In this document: positions 9,001 through 26,753 of the stretch, piece by piece
Position numbering within the stretch: position 1 is the first letter of the stretch
Layout: the number at the start of each line of letters is the position of its first letter
IMG/VR virus record: IMGVR_UViG_3300037963_002735
Coordinates: 1-36,932 of that record
DNA from: a virus
Length of the DNA: 36,932 nucleotides
Strand: one strand, 5' to 3'
The notes under the pieces: model-generated
What the model saw: the letters and a program-made list of their open reading frames with translations, nothing else
Databases searched by the model: none
Told to the model about the DNA's origin: nothing
Made by a program: the position numbers and the translations under genes

Positions 9001-12000
9001 CAAGATTGATTACATGCGTAATCGGATCAATCAAGAACTTGAAGATGCTTTGAGTGTGGCTAATAGTTACAAAGAAGCTACGGGAGAAGATGTTCTTCTT
9101 CCTACTCCTGAGAATACTTTGGATGCCCAAGTTGAATTAGTAGCTAGAGTTGATAGAGCTATTGAGGACGGTGTTCCTACTACGGGTGCGTCGATGTCTG
9201 CTAGTGGCGTGTTTGATGGTATGGAATCGGAGTTAGGTGTCTTTTATGCGGTCAACGATTTTCCCACCATCGGTATACCTAATAGTAGCCAGTCTGATTA
9301 TCGCTCCATTATTGAACAGATTGAGGAAAAGATAGGTGGGCGCATACAGGAACTCGGGGAAGAAATAGCTGCTCGGGGTCAACCACTGAATTTGTCTTAT
9401 ACAGACAAGATGGGTCGAACGCAGACTTTAACTGTTGCTGATTATGTTTTGTTGAAGCAACGTATGAATGCGATTGAAACTGCTAAAGCTACGCATCAGT
9501 TTAATTTACGTCATGTCCGTCCTGGGATTGACGAGATGCGATTGGTTGAAGGACCGTCTGGGACTAATCCTGGTGGCGTGTATGAAGATGCGGCTGGTAA
9601 TCGTTATTACGCCAAACGATACAATGCTGTAGAAGAAGATTTTATGGGTCAACCTTCGGCAATGTATGACGAGGATGGCGATGTGATCGCTTCTCCTCGT
9701 CGTGCTGCTAGTGAAGTTTTGGCTAATGCTTTTTACCGTGAGTTAGGGCTTGGTGCTCCTAACTCTTACATGTCTTATGGAGCGGATGGCAGTTCGTGGC
9801 ATATCGCTCCAATGATTGACGAGTTTACAACTGTCATGGAGACAGGTTTCGATCCTGCTGAGTTGGTGGTGTGGACTGATCCGAACACTGGATTACAAAG
9901 ATTAGGTACACAAGGTATTGTTCCTCCTGGTGTCGCTGCTCGTCCTTTCCAGCAGATGGCTGCTGATGGTTTTACTGCTGATGTTATTTTGGCTAACTGG
10001 GATGCTGCTGGTACAGGGTTTGACAATATTGGTTTAGCTCCTTTTCATTTAGAAGAAACTTCCGTGGTTCGTATCGACAATGGTGCGACGTTTGGGTTTA
10101 GAGCACAGGGTTTGCCTAAGGAAGCAACTGGTTGGAGTTACCGTGATGTTTTGAGTGAAGCTGAAGGGTTAGCAGATCCCAATACAAATCCGTATGCGGC
10201 TCAAATGGTTGGTCAATTCGCTGACGATATGGGTGCGTTATCTCAACAGTTAGACAAGATTCTTGTGTTGCGAGCTAGGTATGGTGGGTTTGAAAACTTT
10301 GTTCGTCGTCATGCAGGTTTGTTGGATGAAGATGACATAGCTTATTTTGCTGATTTCTTAGAGGTTCGTACTCGGGAATTAAGCGAAATGATGAGTAAGG
10401 ATTTCCATGAAGCTGGTTCCGAGGAATTAGCTAAGGCTGGGTTAGCTGCTCGTGGTTTTTCTCAGACTGCTGTTGAGGATGCTTATTCGGGTGTGACTTC
10501 TGCCATGATTGCGTCTGGTGTTGTTCCTGATGCTGTTACGAGTTTGAATCATGGCACTACTGGTGGTGGTGTCGAAAACTTGTGGGGTAGTTATGGGGAT
10601 CTTCAAGCAGGTTATGGTGATTATTGGGCGCTTAACGCTACCCCTGGCAACATAAAATACGACGTTGGTCCAGCAACAGATGTTTACAGGCTTGAACTTG
10701 ATGTGCCTATGGGTGGAGAAAGCGTCAAGATTTATGGGTTAGATCCTAAACAACAGAATTTGGCTGCTGAACTTGCTGTTCAGATGGGTGTTGAAACTGA
10801 CCCAGACAAAGTGACTTCGATTGCTAATCGTTTGAATGCTTTGATAGATAGTTCTCGTTTCCCAGAGTCTCAAGTTTTTGCTGGGACTGCTTCTGGTAAC
10901 TCTATGATTTTGGATCAAGTTGGACGGGTAATGAACTCTGATCCAGAGTTTATGGAAGGGTTCGTAAGCGCTTTACGGGCTTCTGTTAATGATGCAAATT
11001 ACATTCAAGTAGTTCAAGATGAGTTTGTTACTAATCTTTTTGAACCTCTAGAACTTATAGCTGCGATAAGACAGCTTGATCTTACGAATGTAACGCCTGC
11101 GTATTCAGACATTGCTCAGAAATTAAATACTTTATCGACCGAAGATATGATGACTTTTTCGATAGTGATGAGTCGAACCTACGGCGGTTTAGATGCGTTG
11201 GAAGATCCTCAAACATTTTTAGAAAATGTTGCTAAATATTTTGCTGAGATAGATCCTCAAACTTCGCCTGATGTTTTAGCTACAGAAACTACGGCTACTG
11301 CAAAAGCTGGAGATTTAATTGGTGGTGCTACTTGGAGTAAACGCCAAAACGAACAATACGTTTCAGGGTTTGTTAGACGTTTTGATGATCTAGTTCATAA
11401 AAATAATCTTAATTTTCCGAGGCGAGACACTCCTTCTGGTGTTCCAACTATTGCGCCAACAGCAAAAGAAGCAGTTGGAAAAGTTATTGCCGAGTCTGGG
11501 AAAGACGCAACAGCGGCACGAATGTATTTAGATTTTATTGAGAAGTACACAACGTCATTATCTGTAGATGGATACACGTCTGTTGGTTGGATGAACACTG
11601 AAGAAATCACAGATGTTGTTGGTAACTATGTCAGTGGTTCCAAAGAAGGACGTTGGTGGCCTAACTTTTTAGTTACTGATCCTTTGGCTGTTAATTACAA
11701 GGGTGGTTTTACTGCGGATTATGCAGGAGCTTCTGCTGTAGATCCTGATGACGTTATAACTTCCGACTTTGTAGGCGCTACTGATTTTATTGAAACTCAA
11801 GCACGGAATGTGCAGGAATCGTTTCCTTTACAACATGACGTGATAACTGATTTACCTGAAGGTGACGCATTAGAAGAAATTGTTAGACAGCGTTCTCAAA
11901 TTGTTTCTGATTTAGGTTTAGCTAAAGGAGATTTCGACCAAGCTGATGCAGCTTTTAGGGCTGCTCGTGAAAGAACTGCCGCTGCTGCTGAAACCGCTGA

Positions 12001-20798: not shown

Positions 20799-21742
20799 GC
20801 TGCTTTTCGTTTCAATCGTTTTATTTCAGCTTTAAGTTCAGCAATTTCTTCTCGTAAAGCTTTAACTCTGCACGCTTCTGAATTGTTTTCTATGTACGTA
20901 ATGTTTTCCAAATGGTCAAGGTTTACACACGCTCTTTCCCCACAGATATGGTGTATCTGGTTTCCTTCAGGGATAGTTTCGTTGTTGGCTACTTCCCAGA
21001 CTTTTCGGTGAGCGGCCATCCGAGTCGTTCCTTCACCATTTTTTGCTATGGAAATAGTTCCATAACCCGCCTCTGTTTTAGTGTGTTGCCAAACTAAACA
21101 ACCTTTTTTGTTTGGCTTCACGTACCCATTTTGGGGATCTAAATAGAAAGCAATAGTTTCAGGCCAGTCCAAATTAAACAAAGTAGGCCGCACTTTTGCA
21201 CCTGCTTGAAAAGTTTTACTTGCGTACCATCTTGCTCCGTGCGCAGCACAAACCTCGCCGTATTCGATTGACTTTGGGTCAAACGTCGGAGGGTCTTGCA
21301 GACCTATAAACCCTTTTTCCGTGTGTCGCCCACAGGGGGTTCCTTTGGAATCTATAGGCACCATGCAAGTGGTATTGCGTGGCAAAGATCCAGCCAACGG
21401 AACATGAGCAAACACATCTCCATATTTTTCTAACCGTCTGAAATGATTAGAACAATAATCGTCGGTCTGTGTGCGTTGCCTAAATGAACAGCCTTGAACT
21501 ATGCAGTCTTTATATTTTCGTTCTTTAATCAGTTCGGTTTTGCTACCCATGCAACAACGCCGATCTTGTTGTTTCTTAGCAGCACGGCGAGCGTTCCCAG
21601 GCAACACATACCTTGGTTCCCCACAACGAGCACACTTCACATACCACGGTGTTTGCGAATCTTCGCCGTATGGCTCTAACGGAATGTATTCAAATTCTCG
21701 CATCTCTTTGTCAGCTTCTTCTGATGTTTTTTTAACTGCCAT
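20795..21742 (-). CDS. HNH endonuclease family protein 2 (315 aa)
   Basis: Starts directly after the lysozyme-like gene (stop TAA, then ATG). It has two N-terminal Cys-rich segments (KCARCGEPR..RRCC and CIVQGCSFRQ...CSNH), then TCMVPIDSKGTPCG and CAAHG, then NGYVKPNKKGCLVWQHTKTEAGYG and the HNH core HRKVWEVANNETIPEGNQIHHICGERACVNLDHL. It ends in a short Lys/Glu coiled coil. The order of modules parallels the 224-residue neighbour, with an extra N-terminal zinc region, so the pair probably arose by tandem duplication. Confidence 0.85.
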   Translation of the reverse strand: MAVKKTSEEADKEMREFEYIPLEPYGEDSQTPWYVKCARCGEPRYVLPGNARRAAKKQQDRRCCMGSKTELIKERKYKDCIVQGCSFRQRTQTDDYCSNHFRRLEKYGDVFAHVPLAGSLPRNTTCMVPIDSKGTPCGRHTEKGFIGLQDPPTFDPKSIEYGEVCAAHGARWYASKTFQAGAKVRPTLFNLDWPETIAFYLDPQNGYVKPNKKGCLVWQHTKTEAGYGTISIAKNGEGTTRMAAHRKVWEVANNETIPEGNQIHHICGERACVNLDHLENITYIENNSEACRVKALREEIAELKAEIKRLKRKAA

Positions 21743-22078
21743 TTACCTGTACCTCCCACAGGTCCATAATTGCCACCCTCCACGGGTGTTCTCGTGTATG
21801 TAGTGCGCCATCCATGTTGACTGCACCACTTCGTACCGTTTCGGCCAGTGTTTTTCAAACACATGGCCCCAATAATGTTCGTTTATTTGAAACAACCCAT
21901 GATCTACCCCGTTGTAGGCACGGGGATTGTGTAGTGACTCGCACCACGCAATCCCCAGCGCCCTTACGCAGTCGTCTGCGAAGTATTCGCAAACAACTTC
22001 GGGGATCTCCGCATTCGGTGGCTCATAATTCACCGATGCGAAGTCAAGGATTGACCAAATAGCCAACCAAAGATTCAT
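21743..22078 (-). CDS. Lysozyme/transglycosylase-like protein in the early block (111 aa)
   Basis: The core reads GIAWCESLHNPRAYNGVDHGLFQINEHYW: Glu47 in the 'A.CES..NP.A' context followed by GLFQIN is the hallmark of SLT/lysozyme-like muramidases. At 111 residues it is a minimal domain. The N-terminus (MNLWLAIWSILDFASV) is hydrophobic but short, a possible weak signal or anchor. It lies between replication genes and is read leftward, far from the amidase/holin lysis cassette. It may act at entry, at superinfection or as a second lysin. It overlaps the upstream gene as ATGA. Confidence 0.8.
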   Translation of the reverse strand: MNLWLAIWSILDFASVNYEPPNAEIPEVVCEYFADDCVRALGIAWCESLHNPRAYNGVDHGLFQINEHYWGHVFEKHWPKRYEVVQSTWMAHYIHENTRGGWQLWTCGRYR

Positions 22079-22530
22079 GTTGTTTCAAACCTTTGGTAAT
22101 TACCCTCGATCTCTTGGATCACCCGATCCTCGTGAAGCGCTAGCCCTGCACCACCCGACATAGGGGTAGTCGGACGTTCCGCCCACTCGTCGTACATGAC
22201 CGCCCAGACAAGAGCCATCGCATGAACCGAACGCTTATTCAGTCCCGACATGTTGCCGTTAAATATCTGCTTTTTGCAATGAGTTTTGAAGTCAGAGTAA
22301 TCAATAAGTTCTGCACGATTGGAAACGTAATTCACCCAATCTTGCTGAGGAACTGACACCCTGACAGGGTAATCACGTTCAGGTGTATCCTGAATCTCTT
22401 TGAATGACACACCGACTCTGGCACAGAAACGTCCAAGAGACTTTGGGTCACGACCACGTACAAGCACATGCCCGTCGTTGTCTAGGTCTTTCACGGTTGA
22501 AAAGAAACCGTCGTCTGTAAATGTCCACAT
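22075..22530 (-). CDS. Early protein of unknown function (151 aa)
   Basis: The start is set at 22530 (MWTFTDDGFF) because the hairpinned GGAGG lies just upstream; the longer frame would read through the intergenic hairpin. The protein has an N-terminal 'VKDLDNDGHVLVRGRDPKSLGRFC' segment and a C-terminal helical part (RSVHAMALVWAVMYDEWAE). No domain is recognised. It forms a coupled unit with the lysozyme-like gene that follows. Confidence 0.7.
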   Translation of the reverse strand: MWTFTDDGFFSTVKDLDNDGHVLVRGRDPKSLGRFCARVGVSFKEIQDTPERDYPVRVSVPQQDWVNYVSNRAELIDYSDFKTHCKKQIFNGNMSGLNKRSVHAMALVWAVMYDEWAERPTTPMSGGAGLALHEDRVIQEIEGNYQRFETT

Positions 22531-22534
22531 AAGC

Positions 22535-22548
22535 AACCTCCAATGGTT
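22535..22548 (-). promoter_or_regulatory. SD hairpin of the 151-aa gene
   Basis: On the coding strand AACC, loop ATTGGA, GGTT. The Shine-Dalgarno GGAGG spans the loop and the 3' arm; ATG follows four bases after the stem. Confidence 0.6.
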
Positions 22549-22568
22549 TGTGGGTTTGTTTGCTACTA

Positions 22569-22609
22569 GGTGTATTACACCCTCACTTCGTGAGGGGGTG
22601 TAATACACC
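22569..22609 (-). repeat. Large intergenic hairpin, early-block type
   Basis: Arms GGTGTATTACACCCTCAC and GTGAGGGGGTGTAATACACC pair over 18 bases with two extra G, closed by a TTC loop. There is no U-run after either arm, so it is not a standard terminator. Same design as the hairpins at 24828 and 24428. Confidence 0.75.
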
Positions 22610-22625
22610 AAGAGTTGGGGGGGCA

Positions 22626-22671
22626 GGGAGGCCAGGAGGGAGGTATACCGTTAGGTATCACCTGGCCTCCC
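22626..22671 (-). promoter_or_regulatory. GC-rich 11-bp hairpin after the DUF932-like gene
   Basis: GGGAGGCCAGG (22626-22636) pairs perfectly with CCTGGCCTCCC (22661-22671), with an inner ATACC/GGTAT stem. It lies 17 bases past the stop of the DUF932-like gene. Strong enough to stall or protect RNA, but no U-run follows leftward, so termination is uncertain. Confidence 0.6.
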
Positions 22672-22687
22672 CAGACCTATCCTACCG

Positions 22688-23698
22688 TCACACACCTACT
22701 AGTAGTAGCTCTCGCAGATATTGTTCTGCCGCATCTGCAATAGGTGTTTTACGATCCAAGACTTTCTCAAATCCTTTCTGCTTTGCAGCAGTCGTAGACT
22801 TGAAGCCTTGATTGATTCGATGCTGCTCGGCACCTTGGAATGCGTTGTATGCGAACCATCCATTACCCCAGACACCATTAGTTTCTTTTGACCAAGCGTT
22901 CAGGATCGCAGCACGTTTCGCATCTACAGCGTTCCGAGTTTTAGTGGGAGCGTCCATGTCTGCCTCTGGCAGTAGAGCGTTAAGCATCCGATAGAACGCA
23001 ACATCACTAAGCCCTTTTTCGCTGAGGTTGCGTGCAAAGGTGACAAGATTGTCACTATTCACCTTGCTTGCCTCCAGCAACGCTGACCGTAAGGTCAGTA
23101 GGTCGTCGTGATTCTTAGTTGACTTAACTTGGATCAGTCCTTTGGACAGATCCAACATGTTCAAGCAACTAACACGGTGACCAACAGCGTTGATCGTTGT
23201 CTTAGCTTGTCCGTTTAAGGACGAGCTAGTGATTATCACAGGTAAAATATTGTCACCATCCATAACTTCAATCGGATCTCCGATTTGTTGGGTGATAGCG
23301 ATACGCTCCCCACGACCAAACACAGTGATGTCTGTGCAACTATCAGGGAACATAGTTTCCATAGTTTCAAAGACGTGCTTGTATCCGTCACGTTGTGGGT
23401 ATCGACCAGAATGTAACCCAAGATCCGTAGAATCTTCTACTTCACCTAAGTCCAGCGGATTAACGCCGTCCACACGAAGAACATACAAGTTCTTAGGGTG
23501 ACCTTTCTTGTTACCTTTTTCGTAAACAGGGGTCTTAAGCTCACCTGTCATGGGGCATACATATCGTGATGCCACATATTCGACAGGGAAATCAGCATTT
23601 ACCTCTGATGCAACGTCAAGGACGTTGCGTCCATGTTCGTTTACCTCTTTGGTCAACCAGTCGTGACCTTCGTGGTAGATAACGGTTTCTAATGTCAT
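22688..23698 (-). CDS. DUF932-like phage/plasmid protein (336 aa)
   Basis: The ATG at 23698 is chosen because a hairpinned GGAGG lies just upstream; the longer GTG form adds low-quality sequence. The overall plan fits the DUF932 group: an N-terminal EVNADFPVEYVASRYVCPMTGEL region, a middle rich in beta strands (RIAITQQIGDPIEVMDGDNILPVIITSSSLNG), then 'HRVSCLNML' and a C-terminal ETNGVWGNGWFAYNAFQGAEQHR like the family's 'NT.W...NA.TEY..H'. DUF932 proteins are abundant in phages and plasmids; their role is not established. An early-expressed location is usual for them. Confidence 0.75.
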   Translation of the reverse strand: MTLETVIYHEGHDWLTKEVNEHGRNVLDVASEVNADFPVEYVASRYVCPMTGELKTPVYEKGNKKGHPKNLYVLRVDGVNPLDLGEVEDSTDLGLHSGRYPQRDGYKHVFETMETMFPDSCTDITVFGRGERIAITQQIGDPIEVMDGDNILPVIITSSSLNGQAKTTINAVGHRVSCLNMLDLSKGLIQVKSTKNHDDLLTLRSALLEASKVNSDNLVTFARNLSEKGLSDVAFYRMLNALLPEADMDAPTKTRNAVDAKRAAILNAWSKETNGVWGNGWFAYNAFQGAEQHRINQGFKSTTAAKQKGFEKVLDRKTPIADAAEQYLRELLLVGV

Positions 23699-23704
23699 GT
23701 AAAC

Positions 23705-23718
23705 ACACCTCCAAGTGT
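23705..23718 (-). promoter_or_regulatory. SD hairpin of the DUF932-like gene
   Basis: On the coding strand ACAC, loop TTGGAG, GTGT; GGAGG spans the loop and arm. ATG follows six bases after the stem. Confidence 0.55.
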
Positions 23719-24108
23719 ATTTGTTAATTGATTTATTTACTTTACCAAGTGGGTGGGACACTCACTCAGAAGCGTGGAATGTTAGGGATTTGCACCCCTA
23801 CACCCTCTCCAAACAAGAACCCAATGAACATAGATCAAGCGCCTTTCACCTGATCGTCCGATCTTGCCTGTCATGTGTATTGCTAGCCTTGCCGTGTAAC
23901 GTCATTGAGCTACGCCTTCACTGTGCCTGCCGTGACTTTTGAAGATTGCTCTCAACTTCTGGTCCTCAACGCATGGCGTTTCCGCATGGCGTATATGGAC
24001 CTCAACTTATTAACAATACTTCTCCTGCCAGACAACTCATAGAGACTTACCACTTAACCTTAGGTGGATAAGTGTGCTCTTTCGCCTTGGCCACATTCCT
24101 TATGTTTG
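23719..24108 (-). ncRNA. Gene-free 390-base interval; candidate structured RNA (24099 to 23776)
   Basis: No convincing ORF on either strand. On the minus strand GGAATGT (24099-24093) can pair with ACATTCC (23782-23776). Immediately before the latter is a T-arm-like hairpin (TAGGG, loop GTGCAAAT, CCCTA; 23800-23783), followed by a single A as discriminator. That is the geometry of a tRNA or tmRNA 3' end with a 324-base span. Inside are several short hairpins (GATCG/CGATC, GAAG/CTTC, two copies of CGCATGGCG). However, the usual tmRNA GGTTTCGAC start and an ALAA-type tag were not found, and the D- and anticodon arms are not clear. A tRNA-like structured RNA is possible; function open. Confidence 0.35.
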
Positions 24109-24153
24109 TGGGAGTATTTACCCCCTCAAACTAGAGGGGGGTAAATACACCCA
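24109..24153 (-). repeat. Large intergenic hairpin, GTATTTA type
   Basis: Core arms GTATTTACCCCCTC (24114-24127) and GAGGGGGGTAAATAC (24134-24148) with loop AAACTA, lying eight bases beyond the stop of the 79-aa gene. Compared with the copies at 24432 and 25763, one A-T pair is replaced by a C-G pair, so pairing is kept. Confidence 0.75.
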
Positions 24154-24160
24154 ACACTTG

Positions 24161-24400
24161 TTAAACGGGGCTGTACACCCCTTCCAGATGCTCATTCATA
24201 GCGATAACAGCGTCGTCGTACGTGTCGTATTTCTTCGACATAATCGTAGACATTCCGTTGCCATCATCCAACGCACCTAGATCTACAGTCACCTGAAAGA
24301 AAAACCAATCACGATCTTCCATTTTGGATACAGATGCCGCCGTCACATAGGGTCTATCGTAGATACACTCCATGCTCTGGTTGATTTCTTTTGTTGTCAT
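24161..24400 (-). CDS. Small early protein, unknown (79 aa)
   Basis: ATG at 24400 with GGGGAGGT in the loop of a hairpin. Aromatic and acidic (CIYDRPYVTAASVSKMEDRDWFFFQVTVDLG), with C-terminal DTYDDAVIAMNEHLEGVY that could form a short helix. No Cys pairs or membrane segment. Part of a cluster of small leftward genes where phages usually keep host-takeover or counter-defence proteins; this specific role is not shown. Confidence 0.75.
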   Translation of the reverse strand: MTTKEINQSMECIYDRPYVTAASVSKMEDRDWFFFQVTVDLGALDDGNGMSTIMSKKYDTYDDAVIAMNEHLEGVYSPV

Positions 24401-24402
24401 AC

Positions 24403-24418
24403 CCGACCTCCCCGTCGG
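24403..24418 (-). promoter_or_regulatory. SD hairpin of the 79-aa gene
   Basis: On the coding strand CCGAC, loop GGGGAG, GTCGG: five perfect pairs, two bases before the ATG. Confidence 0.65.
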
Positions 24419-24427
24419 TGTTGTTGT

Positions 24428-24471
24428 GGGAGTATTTAACCCCTCAAACTAGAGGGGGTTAAATACACCCA
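24428..24471 (-). repeat. Large intergenic hairpin, GTATTTAA type
   Basis: Core arms GTATTTAACCCCTC (24432-24445) and GAGGGGGTTAAATAC (24452-24466), loop AAACTA, with an outer GGG/CCC extension across an A-A mismatch. Nine bases past the upstream gene's stop. Confidence 0.8.
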
Positions 24472-24479
24472 ACATTTGA

Positions 24480-24800
24480 TTACATCCCAGGTTCCCACGT
24501 ATCTTCGGTGAGAATCCAAGTCGAACGAACGTCATACTTAGATGTGAACACACCAGCTTCTAATAGCTGGTTCCCATACTCATACCGCTTACGGGAAATG
24601 TTTGCTTCCTTATGGACAGGTGGAACGATAGTTCCAGTCAAAGAGTAAACCGCTTCAGCGGTTTGCGCATCCAAGAAAGCCCGAACCAAATTCGCATCAG
24701 CACCGTCCAAAGGACGGAACCTAGCTCGAACAGTGGCACCCATACCTACGATGTCGCCACCTACAGCGTAAAGTGCTGCACCCTCTATCCAATTGCTCAT
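24480..24800 (-). CDS. Small early protein, unknown (106 aa)
   Basis: ATG at 24800 preceded by a hairpinned GGAGG. The protein has a hydrophobic Gly-rich N-terminus (IEGAALYAVGGDIVGMGATV), a middle DGADANLVRAFLDAQTAEAVY helix and a C-terminal aromatic end (STWILTEDTWEPGM). No family is recognised. It is separated from the neighbours on both sides by large hairpins, so it may be translated independently. Confidence 0.75.
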   Translation of the reverse strand: MSNWIEGAALYAVGGDIVGMGATVRARFRPLDGADANLVRAFLDAQTAEAVYSLTGTIVPPVHKEANISRKRYEYGNQLLEAGVFTSKYDVRSTWILTEDTWEPGM

Positions 24801-24804
24801 ATTT

Positions 24805-24820
24805 CCGATCCTCCAATCGG
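24805..24820 (-). promoter_or_regulatory. SD hairpin of the 106-aa gene
   Basis: On the coding strand CCGAT, loop TGGAGG, ATCGG: five perfect pairs with the complete Shine-Dalgarno in a six-base loop, four bases before the ATG. Confidence 0.7.
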
Positions 24821-24827
24821 TTGTTTA

Positions 24828-24877
24828 TTGGGGGTATTACACCCCTCACTACGTGAGGGGGGTGTAATACCTCCCAA
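24828..24877 (-). repeat. Large intergenic hairpin, GTATTACA type
   Basis: Arms GGTATTACACCCCTCAC and GTGAGGGGGGTGTAATACC pair with two extra G and a TAC loop, with an outer TTGGG/CCCAA extension past one bulged T. Three bases past the stop of the 58-aa gene. Closest in design to the copy at 22569. Confidence 0.8.
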
Positions 24878-24880
24878 ACT

Positions 24881-25057
24881 CTACTTTCGCTCGGCATCAA
24901 GCCGTGCCTGCCACCAAGCCTTCCACTCAGCTTCAGCACGAGCCTGCCTAGCCTTACGCTCTGCCTGTAAGCGTTCCCATTTCGCTATGAGCAACATATG
25001 TGACCAAGCGATAGCGAACCCAAACAACAGGTACGATGCAGCAGGAATATCAGGCAT
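24881..25057 (-). CDS. Small membrane protein with basic coiled tail (58 aa)
   Basis: A 58-codon ORF whose ATG overlaps the upstream stop (TGATG). Residues 6-25 (AASYLLFGFAIAWSHMLLIA) form one hydrophobic segment. Residues 26-58 are a charged, Ala/Arg/Trp-rich helix (KWERLQAERKARQARAEAEW). Likely a single-pass inner-membrane protein with a cytoplasmic basic tail. Co-translated with the 118-aa protein. Function unknown; an antiholin, superinfection or takeover role is possible but speculative. Confidence 0.72.
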   Translation of the reverse strand: MPDIPAASYLLFGFAIAWSHMLLIAKWERLQAERKARQARAEAEWKAWWQARLDAERK

Positions 25058-25413
25058 CACGCATTCACCTGCCAGTACTCACGAATATTCTGCAAAGCCT
25101 GCACATCATCGGGATGCCAAGTATCTCCAGATACTTTGAACTCGTCCTCTAACTCTGAAAGAGTCCCCTCGTGACCCTCATAGCCAAGGTAATACCACGA
25201 CACTAGATGACCGTCCTCTAGGACGGCAGTCTCGTAAGCCTCATTAGTGAGGAACACTTTGCCGCTGTGAGTATTAAACATAGGCCGCACCATGTCTGAC
25301 TCAAAGTCAGACGGCAACCCACACATATTCCATGCCGTAAGCAACTCAACAAGAATCTGCCGCTCACGAGCACCAAACCGACCTATGTCGGTAGTAACAA
25401 TATCATCATACAT
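25057..25413 (-). CDS. Small early protein, unknown (118 aa)
   Basis: The start at 25413 (MYDDIVTTD) is set by the hairpinned GGAGG upstream; the longer frame runs back through the hairpin. Soluble and acidic, with an N-terminal helical part (RERQILVELLTAWNMCGL) and a C-terminal WHPDDVQALQNIREYW. No motif is recognised. Its stop overlaps the next ATG, so the 58-aa membrane protein is probably made in step with it. Confidence 0.75.
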   Translation of the reverse strand: MYDDIVTTDIGRFGARERQILVELLTAWNMCGLPSDFESDMVRPMFNTHSGKVFLTNEAYETAVLEDGHLVSWYYLGYEGHEGTLSELEDEFKVSGDTWHPDDVQALQNIREYWQVNA

Positions 25414-25417
25414 TTTT

Positions 25418-25431
25418 CGGACCTCCATCCG
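25418..25431 (-). promoter_or_regulatory. SD hairpin of the 118-aa gene
   Basis: On the coding strand CGGA, loop TGGAGG, TCCG: four perfect pairs, four bases before the ATG. Confidence 0.65.
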
Positions 25432-25466
25432 TAATATTCCAATCAACATATCAAGAGATTGGGGCA

Positions 25467-25491
25467 GATCCACCACCAAAGGTGGTGAATC
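25467..25491 (-). repeat. Intergenic hairpin, CACCACC type
   Basis: CACCACC (25471-25477), loop AAA, GGTGGTG, with an outer GAT/ATC stem across one mismatch. Same position (12 bases past a stop) as the GTATTTAA hairpins but a different sequence. Confidence 0.7.
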
Positions 25492-25503
25492 CGACTCAAC
25501 CGC

Positions 25504-25731
25504 TTACTTATTGAGCAACTCGACACCCTTTTCAAGGGTCAAATCATAAGACAAGGCATACGCCCAGCCATCATATTCAGGCCGATTAAAGTCCTTAATA
25601 GCAACCACAAACGGTGCTTCAGGGAAGGGACATTCGTCCCTTTTCACTAGGATTCTAAAGAATCCAGGGTCGTTAGCAATTTCAACCTTGTCGATAATGG
25701 GATACCCATTAGCAGTGGTAATTTCATTCAT
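25504..25731 (-). CDS. Small early protein, unknown (75 aa)
   Basis: The ATG at 25731 is selected because the hairpinned GGAGG lies directly before it. Sequence MNEITTANGYPIIDKVEIAN, then DPGFFRILVKRDECPFPEAPFVVAIKDF and a C-terminal helix. Mixed alpha/beta, single Cys. Flanked by large hairpins on both sides. No family recognised. Confidence 0.75.
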   Translation of the reverse strand: MNEITTANGYPIIDKVEIANDPGFFRILVKRDECPFPEAPFVVAIKDFNRPEYDGWAYALSYDLTLEKGVELLNK

Positions 25732-25748
25732 CCGATTTCCTCCATCGG
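25732..25748 (-). promoter_or_regulatory. SD hairpin of the 75-aa gene
   Basis: On the coding strand CCGAT, loop GGAGGAA, ATCGG: five perfect pairs with the complete Shine-Dalgarno in the loop. The stem abuts the ATG directly. Confidence 0.7.
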
Positions 25749-25762
25749 TTTTGATAGTGAGA

Positions 25763-25797
25763 GTATTTAACCCCTCAAACAAGAGGGGGTTAAATAC
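25763..25797 (-). repeat. Large intergenic hairpin, GTATTTAA type
   Basis: GTATTTAACCCCTC (25763-25776), loop AAACAA, GAGGGGGTTAAATAC (25783-25797). Nearly identical arms to the copy at 24432, with one loop base changed. Confidence 0.8.
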
Positions 25798-25827
25798 ACT
25801 CAATCCAGCAGTTAGCTGATCTAACCC

Positions 25828-25849
25828 TCCAACCCCCTAAGGGGTTGGA
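25828..25849 (-). promoter_or_regulatory. Hairpin after the 57-aa gene
   Basis: TCCAACCCC (25828-25836), loop CTAA, GGGGTTGGA: nine perfect pairs, 32 bases past the stop at 25882. No U-run follows leftward. Could be a processing or stabilising element. Confidence 0.65.
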
Positions 25850-25881
25850 AAGAAAGAACAAACAACGCTGTAAGCGTTACC

Positions 25882-26055
25882 TCAATCCAATACCTTCGGC
25901 AAAGCAACAGCCAACAGCCCCATCAGATCTACGATCTGCTTCGGAGTCAAAGTCACTTTCATCTGAGATTGAGAAACCAAAATCCCTTGGGGATTCAACA
26001 CCTGCTCTTCAACAGAATCAGCAAAGACAGCAGTAAATTCAAAAGTTTTCATCAT
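25882..26055 (-). CDS. Small early protein, unknown (57 aa)
   Basis: A 57-codon ORF; its first ATG overlaps the upstream stop (TAATG), and a second in-frame ATG follows directly. Sequence MMKTFEFTAVFADSVEEQVL, then NPQGILVSQSQMKVTLTPKQ and a hydrophobic C-terminal helix IVDLMGLLAVALPKVLD. The last 17 residues could be amphipathic or peripherally membrane bound. It forms a coupled pair with the 56-aa gene. No family recognised. Confidence 0.7.
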   Translation of the reverse strand: MMKTFEFTAVFADSVEEQVLNPQGILVSQSQMKVTLTPKQIVDLMGLLAVALPKVLD

Positions 26056-26225
26056 TAGACTAACTCTCCAATCGCATCGAGATACCTCTCGATATCACCC
26101 AAAGCTCTCCTAATTTCAGGAGCAGTATTTCCAGCTTCAATCTGCTGAAGCAGCAACAATCTCATATTTTTGTAACCATCCAAAGATGGTTCCAAACTGA
26201 TAAAGCTAATTTCTTTATTTGCCAT
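26055..26225 (-). CDS. First gene of the leftward block, unknown (56 aa)
   Basis: The start at 26225 (MANKEISFIS) is used; an in-frame ATG at 26237 lies inside the Shine-Dalgarno and is not credible. Acidic helical protein: NMRLLLLQQIEAGNTAPEIRRALGDIERYLDAIGEL. It is the promoter-proximal gene after the divergent control region, so it is probably among the earliest products. Function unknown. Confidence 0.72.
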   Translation of the reverse strand: MANKEISFISLEPSLDGYKNMRLLLLQQIEAGNTAPEIRRALGDIERYLDAIGELV

Positions 26226-26242
26226 TTCGACCTCCATCGAAA
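26225..26242 (-). promoter_or_regulatory. SD hairpin of the 56-aa gene
   Basis: On the coding strand TTTCGA, loop TGGAGG, TCGAAA: six perfect pairs with the Shine-Dalgarno alone in the loop. The last paired base is the A of the ATG. Confidence 0.75.
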
Positions 26243-26254
26243 ATTTGGTTTGGG

Positions 26255-26291
26255 GTTTTCTCTCCCCTCAAAAAGAGGGGGGAGAGAAAAC
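26255..26291 (-). repeat. Large leader hairpin before the first early gene
   Basis: GTTTTCTCTCCCCTC (26255-26269), loop AAAAA, GAGGGGGGAGAGAAAAC (26275-26291), with two extra G as in the other copies. It occupies the same place relative to the SD hairpin as the intergenic hairpins, though here it is not preceded by a gene. Confidence 0.75.
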
Positions 26292-26399
26292 TCTTTCAAA
26301 GAGAATCAAGCTACTTTCAGAACCCCCAGCAAAACCCCCCAACCATCGAAGGGTTGCCACGAAGTGGCAGCGGTCCGCTATTTGCCACCACCAACAGCA

Positions 26400-26414: not shown

Positions 26415-26426
26415 CTGGGCCGTTTC

Positions 26427-26443
26427 CTAGTACAAAGTACTAG
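26427..26443. promoter_or_regulatory. Operator-like palindrome O2
   Basis: CTAGTAC, spacer AAA, GTACTAG: perfect 7-bp arms, six bases from O3. Confidence 0.6.
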
Positions 26444-26448
26444 TTTTT

Positions 26449-26469
26449 ACTTAGTACAGAGTACTAAGT
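26449..26469. promoter_or_regulatory. Operator-like palindrome O3
   Basis: Arms ACTTAGTAC and GTACTAAGT around spacer AGA: nine perfect pairs. Best match to a dimeric regulator site in this region. Confidence 0.65.
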
Positions 26470-26632
26470 GCAGCGGCGGTCCACCGAACTGGCCCAGCTT
26501 GCTGAAAGCAAGCCGCACGCACCCACCCCCCTGTGGGGGTACGCCCCCTTGCGCACGTATATGTATAGATATCCATTTGGAATGCGTTTGGTTTTTAGAA
26601 CTTGAATCCTTTGTCGCTGTATGCGCCAAAGT

Positions 26633-26653
26633 TCTTAGTTCCTAGTACTAAGT
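26633..26653. promoter_or_regulatory. Operator-like imperfect palindrome O4
   Basis: TCTTAGTTC, spacer CTA, GTACTAAGT: right half identical to O3; left half has two mismatches. Confidence 0.5.
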
Positions 26654-26710
26654 GTCAATCTCCATCCCTGGGGGGTATGGAGATTGGTACTAAGTAATTA
26701 CTTAGTATAG
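26645..26710 (-). promoter_or_regulatory. Leftward promoter/operator cassette B
   Basis: Half-site GTACTAAGT (26645-26653), two bases, a 10-bp hairpin CAATCTCCAT/ATGGAGATTG with an 11-base loop (26656-26686), two bases, palindrome ACTAAGTAATTACTTAGT (26689-26706) and the leftward box TATACT (26710-26705, partly overlapping). Same order and spacing as cassette A at 19796-19858 but a different hairpin sequence. It would drive the cluster of small early genes. No good -35 is visible. Confidence 0.65.
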
Positions 26711-26753
26711 GGGGAGAGTGTCCCGTTTTATTTACTGGTTGTGTGTGTTTGTA

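Follow-up and report, generated by a model that had tools for sequence, protein, structure and literature searches.

The closest described counterparts of the element considered here are the start-associated sequences (SAS) and extended start-associated sequences (ESAS) of the Cluster K mycobacteriophages and the Microbacterium Cluster EF phages, whose function is unknown (PMC3203893, PMC7302621). In Cluster K, the SAS is one fixed 13-bp sequence, GGGATAGGAGCCC, that lies over the Shine-Dalgarno sequence (SD) a few base pairs before the starts of non-structural genes only, and the ESAS is an inverted repeat that directly precedes about half of these start elements. The locus compared with them is the early region of the 36,932-nucleotide virus record IMGVR_UViG_3300037963_002735 from IMG/VR, referred to throughout as the window. 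Before many early genes of this phage and of related marine phages, a short RNA hairpin displays the SD in its loop, and a longer hairpin often stands just upstream. These hairpins share the placement of the SAS as a repeated element over the SD, a few base pairs before starts and confined to non-structural genes. The difference lies in what is held constant, which in Cluster K is the whole sequence and in the window phage the SD alone, the arms varying with their pairing kept.

A likeness to the Cluster K SAS was part of the original prediction made for this DNA, and it holds for the layout but not for the sequence. With up to two mismatches allowed, the window contains no match to the Cluster K SAS, and none was found to the 13-bp Cluster EF SAS, GGGAAAGGACCCC. 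The Cluster K arms are, moreover, mostly invariant with few compensations. The GGG and CCC ends of the SAS could pair, but deviating copies in the phages TM4 and Pixie are rarely compensatory: among start-associated copies with changed arms, the changes compensate fully in one (CGG/CCG in Pixie) and leave a G.U pair in another, and in most of the remainder a pair is lost. Pope et al. describe the SAS as asymmetric, reserving their remark on hairpins for the ESAS, and the word "hairpin" is absent from a 2025 survey. A search of the open literature found no paper proposing a hairpin-forming SAS and no earlier description of a start cassette with an SD-displaying hairpin. If the element works as proposed below, the comparison would make the question of SAS and ESAS function more testable, namely whether GGG and CCC serve as the two sides of a stem.

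At bacterial start sites, structure is commonly regarded as an obstacle or an off switch. In phage T4, RNA structures in the start regions of genes 38, 25 and e hide the SD or shorten the spacing between SD and AUG (PMC3014915). By analogy, the hairpins of the window may be a further case of phage mRNA structure acting on translation initiation; they differ in that the SD is displayed in the loop. Here selection has repeatedly kept an SD-displaying structure while leaving its arms free, often beside a second covarying hairpin.

Hairpins with covarying arms at early gene starts

The early genes of the window run along the minus strand from 26.3 kb downwards and the structural genes lie on the plus strand; the labels early and late were inferred from gene content. 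All seven stem-SD-stem strings listed by the original prediction are exact and on the minus strand at their respective ATGs. An eighth, strong hairpin, absent from that list, precedes the ATG at 21742 (Table 1). The stems comprise 4-7 bp, with a mean stability of about -4.5 kcal/mol, and enclose loops of 5-9 nt with GGAGG, mostly 6 nt long (hexaloops at 38 of 56 sites). Several stems can be extended by a U.G pair, which reduces the loop to GGAG, and the end of GGAGG lies 4-9 nt from the start codon.

Each SD site was scored by its longest perfect Watson-Crick stem with the SD in the loop, against a null in which left flanks were redealt among SD sites. At least four stem pairs are found at 8 of the 13 early SD sites of the window (2.06 expected), a number reached in 0 of 2000 permutations, and at 0 of 12 late sites. 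Two of the starts, 24800 and 25413, were missed by a simple gene caller and entered by hand. When the 56 GGAGG words on both strands of the window are considered, a Watson-Crick hairpin of at least four pairs accompanies all eight words at these starts (the seven and 21742) and 6/48 words elsewhere; the Fisher P of 2e-6 is optimistic because the eight sites were partly picked for their hairpins.

Since IMG/VR holds many relatives of the window phage, the comparison could be widened to 65 related marine contigs, for which the DUF932 protein served as bait together with a conserved 238-aa early protein and further proteins of the early region. Among unique GGAGG sites, at least four pairs are formed at 57 of 85 in close relatives (10.9 expected; maximum of 300 permutations 20) and at 39 of 92 in distant relatives (9.7 expected; permutation maximum 18). 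Late sites have no such hairpins in close relatives (0/42), and in distant ones their number is near expectation. Because varying registers diluted a position-by-position pairing matrix, a register map was used in its place. In this map, the excess is found solely where GGAGG is in the loop or at its edge (T[GGAGG], NN[GGAG]G, NNN[GGA]GG and GGAGGAA); the main registers exceed cross-pairing about tenfold or more, and the outer registers are at chance. No clear excess was found in the control phages T7 (0/38 SD starts), TM4, Pixie, Ruegeria 45A6 and a spring-water podovirus. It had also been proposed that the element is missing where the ATG of a gene overlaps an upstream stop. This survives as a tendency, with hairpins at 43/53 SD sites at least 30 nt from the upstream stop and at 10/23 of those closer than 10 nt (P = 0.002, on crude gene calls), but not as a rule, the start at 21742 directly following a stop codon and having one of the strongest hairpins.

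The original prediction attributed the changing arms to selection on a paired structure around a constant SD, and the relatives bear this out: their arms change with pairing kept, and swapping or permuting the flanks leaves three to five times fewer hairpins. For orthologs of the DUF932 gene, the hairpin is present in 18 of 18 contigs in 8 different forms, loop variants counted, with arms ACACA/TGTGT, ACAC/GTGT, CATGTAC/GTACATG, TGTAC/GTACA, TGACC/GGTCA and TTGG/CCAA. Arms also change in concert before the genes at 24400, 24800 and 25731 and before the HNH gene (Table 1). In this last case the hairpin overlaps the end of the upstream reading frame, where the paired changes amount to ACC to ACT, which is synonymous, and AGG to AAG, which replaces Arg by Lys. 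Redealing left arms within gene families (87 variants) yields 15.3 +- 2.1 hairpins against 48 observed, with a maximum of 23 in 2000 permutations. When ortholog columns are instead counted in one fixed register, there are 31 double Watson-Crick changes, 22 single changes to or from G.U and 20 double changes with G.U, as against 143 breaking changes (104 single, 39 double) that include register shifts and orthologs without a hairpin. Because the fixed-register count scores every such shift and absence as breaking, the within-family permutation is preferred. Interruptions of the stems, compared as a criterion for RNA versus DNA, comprise 7 by G.U and 4 by A.C, which does not decide between the two.

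The arm pairs CCGAT/ATCGG, CGGA/TCCG and ACAAC/GTTGT recur before unrelated genes in the early regions of different phages (the window, L082, L095 and L094), which suggests that hairpin cassettes travel along with small early genes or pass from one to another. Recurrence of the first two pairs would also be expected if a few copies had spread by duplication and palindromes were favoured by composition. That chance and shared ancestry of this kind produced the whole pattern is hardly credible, given that the within-family permutation keeps flank composition and gives one third of the observed hairpins, and that late genes and control phages lack the excess.

Long upstream hairpins

A long hairpin, which the original prediction did not include, lies upstream of 32/59 SD-hairpin sites, compared with 7/58 other sites and 0/89 late sites. 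This is close to the share of Cluster K start elements that carry an inverted repeat. The long hairpin ends 13-18 nt before GGAGG in 25 of the 32 cases. About 20 different stems are represented, and 4 of 11 consensus pairs have changes on both sides, a sign of covariation. The ESAS differs in having a shared repeat consensus with SigA-like promoter hexamers; moreover, the Cluster K repeats have been judged non-pairing as RNA and may hold promoters, whereas the long hairpins pair and covary. As intrinsic terminators the long hairpins were rejected, a T run on their 3' side being absent, and the gap between long hairpin and SD hairpin is too short for a promoter. A scan of the window against Rfam gave no match at or above the curated gathering score, the long hairpins producing weak, sub-threshold hits of microRNA type.

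The original prediction allowed for either an RNA or a DNA structure, of which RNA is the best resolution: the hairpins follow the sense strand, stand at starts, are restricted to early genes and have arms that vary. A role in DNA, with the inverted repeats serving as operators, promoters or antisense terminators, could draw on three window hairpins that resemble weak terminators on the other strand and on the SigA-like promoters held by the Cluster K ESAS repeats (PMC11373665). It is nevertheless very improbable. No single DNA-binding protein fits arms that vary so freely, promoter-like matches number 2 against 6.0 in shuffled sequences, the tails on the opposite strand are mostly not T runs, and the hairpins without exception follow the sense direction, their GGAGG loops lying directly ahead of a start.

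The early genes of phage T7 are likewise separated by long hairpins, which are sites for RNase III. The resemblance extends to the long intergenic hairpins and not to the SD-loop hairpins, which T7 lacks. Cleavage or processing could be proposed, either by a phage RNase that cuts the SD in the loop to shut off early genes or by RNase III-type enzymes that cut the long hairpins to separate early messages. Restriction to early genes, GGAG in start regions and long, near-perfect intergenic hairpins would all suit such a role, and the T4 enzyme RegB cuts the GGAG of early SDs (PMC3014915). The proposal is improbable all the same: RegB favours A-rich sequence on the 3' side of GGAG and is impeded where the RNA is structured, while here a pairing arm follows, and cutting of the long hairpins leaves the SD hairpin unexplained. 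The RegB family (PF10715) was not found in 22 phage records, several of which are fragments.

Table 1. Positions of the SD hairpins and long upstream hairpins in the window (loops in square brackets)
Feature	Sequence	Position	Strand	Start codon and remarks
SD hairpin	TTTCGA[TGGAGG]TCGAAA	26225..26242	-	Takes in A of ATG 26225; orthologs TTTCGAT[GGAGGT]ATCGAAA and a U.G variant
SD hairpin	CCGAT[GGAGGAA]ATCGG	25732..25748	-	ATG 25731; orthologs L094 CAAC[TTGGAG]GTTG, L138 TGTAC[TGGGAG]GTACA
SD hairpin	CGGA[TGGAGG]TCCG	25418..25431	-	ATG 25413; orthologs L101, L095 GGATC[GAGGGA]GGTCC with U.G pair
SD hairpin	CCGAT[TGGAGG]ATCGG	24805..24820	-	ATG 24800; z -3.3; orthologs GCGGC/GCCGC, ACAAC/GTTGT
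SD hairpin	CCGAC[GGGGAG]GTCGG	24403..24418	-	ATG 24400; orthologs CCGAA/TTCGG, GAAC/GTTC
SD hairpin	ACAC[TTGGAG]GTGT	23705..23718	-	ATG 23698 (DUF932 gene)
Weak SD hairpin	AACC[ATTGGA]GGTT	22535..22548	-	ATG 22530; arms invariant in close relatives, lost in distant
SD hairpin	ACCTGT[GGGAGGT]ACAGGT	21745..21763	-	ATG 21742 (HNH gene), within 3' end of upstream gene; z -3.9; relatives ACTTGT/ACAAGT
Long upstream hairpin	GAGTTTTCTCTCCCC...GGGGAGAGAAAACCC	26252..26293	-
Long upstream hairpin	TGAGTGTATTTAACCCC...GGGGTTAAATACTCTCA	25758..25803	-
Long upstream hairpin	around GGATTCACCACC[TTT]GGTGGTGGATC	25455..25503 (approximate ends)	-
Long upstream hairpin	GGGAGGTATTACACCCC...GGGGTGTAATACCCCC	24829..24877	-
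Long upstream hairpin	GGGTGTATTTAACCCC...GGGGTTAAATACTCCC	24428..24470	-
Long upstream hairpin	CTTGGTGTATTACACCC...GGGTGTAATACACCTAG	22566..22612	-
Long-hairpin copy without SD hairpin		24110..24152	-	Followed by tRNA-like RNA, no gene start

Predicted exposure of the Shine-Dalgarno sequence

Presentation of the SD to ribosomes, one of the roles suggested in the original prediction, finds computational support in folding calculations that covered -100 to +38 around each start. The predicted mean probability that GGAGG is unpaired is 0.71 at hairpin sites, 0.49 at early sites without a hairpin and 0.33 at late sites. Swapping the left arm lowers the value at hairpin sites from 0.71 to 0.50 (native higher in 49 of 56), and shuffling the upstream 70 nt lowers it to 0.61 (native higher in 50 of 56). 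According to de Smit and van Duin, start-site stems of such weakness can reportedly be opened by the 30S subunit. Because the computed exposure of the SD is combined with weak stems in this range, an SD-presenting, insulated start cassette is the favoured reading. Structure, covariation, early-gene restriction and the two-part layout are established features of a real, structurally conserved RNA element, for which this mechanism is plausible. That the element is a cis-acting RNA, a two-hairpin translation-start cassette that presents and insulates the SD, is judged to have slightly better than an even chance of being correct.

According to this proposal, the mRNA would fold so that the long hairpin and both arms of the small one pair with themselves and not with the SD. 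The SD would be left single-stranded in the loop, open to the anti-SD of 16S rRNA whatever upstream gene or intergenic stretch precedes it, and the weak small stem would give way to the 30S subunit arriving at the AUG. Every early gene would thereby gain a start site independent of its neighbours, an arrangement suited to a region of small, variable genes, and late genes and most coupled genes would manage without the cassette. Higher or context-independent translation may be the result. Synthetic insulators of the RiboJ type place a structured RNA, which includes a self-cleaving ribozyme, upstream of a hairpin that exposes the SD, and thus make expression independent of upstream sequence. If the proposal is true, the phage cassette would be a natural counterpart of these engineered start-site insulators, with the difference that no ribozyme was recognised in the window by Rfam.

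Several observations weigh against this account. About one third of early GGAGG sites have no hairpin, and in distant relatives the hairpin is present at fewer than half of the sites. One of the window's eight hairpins is weak: the one at 22530 uses two SD G's in its stem, folds no more stably than shuffled sequences (z = 0.32) and has arms that are invariant in close relatives, so that by itself the site is no evidence. Folding does not predict a more accessible AUG (0.46 native, 0.53 with the arm swapped). The computed gain at the SD fits protein binding equally, because it follows in part from any local hairpin, and presentation, insulation and processing are indistinguishable by sequence.

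The strongest rival is a CsrA-like protein that reads GGA in a hexaloop. More generally, the hairpin would be the binding site of a phage or host RNA-binding protein that recognises GGA or GGAGG in the loop of a short stem and represses, protects or times early translation, in the manner of CsrA and RsmE. Ligands of CsrA obtained by systematic evolution of ligands by exponential enrichment (SELEX) mostly hold GGA in 6-nt loops on stems of at most four contiguous pairs (PMC7652899), and the element is similar in that its short hairpins, which can overlap the SD, carry GGA in loops that are often six nucleotides long. Beyond the frequent hexaloops, 28 sites are exactly C[NNGGAG]G, and free arms around an unchanging loop are what recognition by loop and shape would be expected to leave. 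However, the ribosome itself requires a constant GGAGG, and the first A conserved in ANGGAN is missing from most loops: of these 28 sites, just 5 have it, T taking its place in 21. Other common registers put GGA elsewhere in the loop, and the element is a serial feature of the early region rather than a set of single regulatory sites. Neither csrA nor a CsrA-family protein was found in 22 phage records, though the host may have a CsrA of its own. Recognition by a protein is a serious possibility on this evidence, if a rather unlikely one; were it correct, the hairpins would define an early regulon with a simple structural code.

A bolder view is that the cassette represents a new class of cis-regulatory RNA, a family-wide structural address read by one trans-acting factor or by a specialised mode of initiation, which would switch the early regulon and of which the SAS flanks of mycobacteriophages might be a sequence-frozen version. 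This view is doubtful.

The phage, its relatives and neighbouring RNAs

By gene content, the 36.9-kb window represents a podovirus-like marine phage with genes for a terminase, portal, major head protein, AEP-type primase, DnaB-like helicase, and HNH and PD-(D/E)XK nucleases. It is without a close cultured relative. The early half of the window gave no megablast match to cultured phages, and the nearest relatives by capsid and primase are all distant (Mx8, Ruegeria 45A6 and spring-water podoviruses). In a genome collection, the sole match to the major head protein, at 67% identity, was contig PAYF01000019.1 (L103) of a metagenome-assembled genome binned as Euryarchaeota. The contig has no early region, and its binning could be a hint of the host or an error. 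The DUF932-domain protein (PF06067, phrog_1221; window 22688-23698, minus strand) is well conserved across this phage family.

Upstream of the DUF932 gene lies a tRNA-like RNA (window 23770-24099, minus strand; L082 9429-9495; also L091, L094 and L109). Its acceptor and T arms are constant (GGAATGT...GGGGTGCAAGTCCCC ACATTCCA) and its anticodon arm is very variable. ARAGORN called a tRNA-Glu in L082 only, and the Rfam tRNA score of 26.1 bits is just below threshold. The two conserved ends are separated in the window by an insertion of about 270 nt, and in L096 the acceptor stem seems to differ with its pairing kept. Just after the tRNA-like RNA in L082 (about 9495-9700), L101, L091 and L109, an apparently structured stretch, CATCGGGAG...CTCCCGAC, is found that is absent from the window and has no Rfam match in L082. 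At about 26420-26720 on the minus strand of the window, upstream of the early genes, short motifs occur in repeated copies, ACTTAGTAC and TAGTACTTTGTACTA among them, and may mark an operator or origin.

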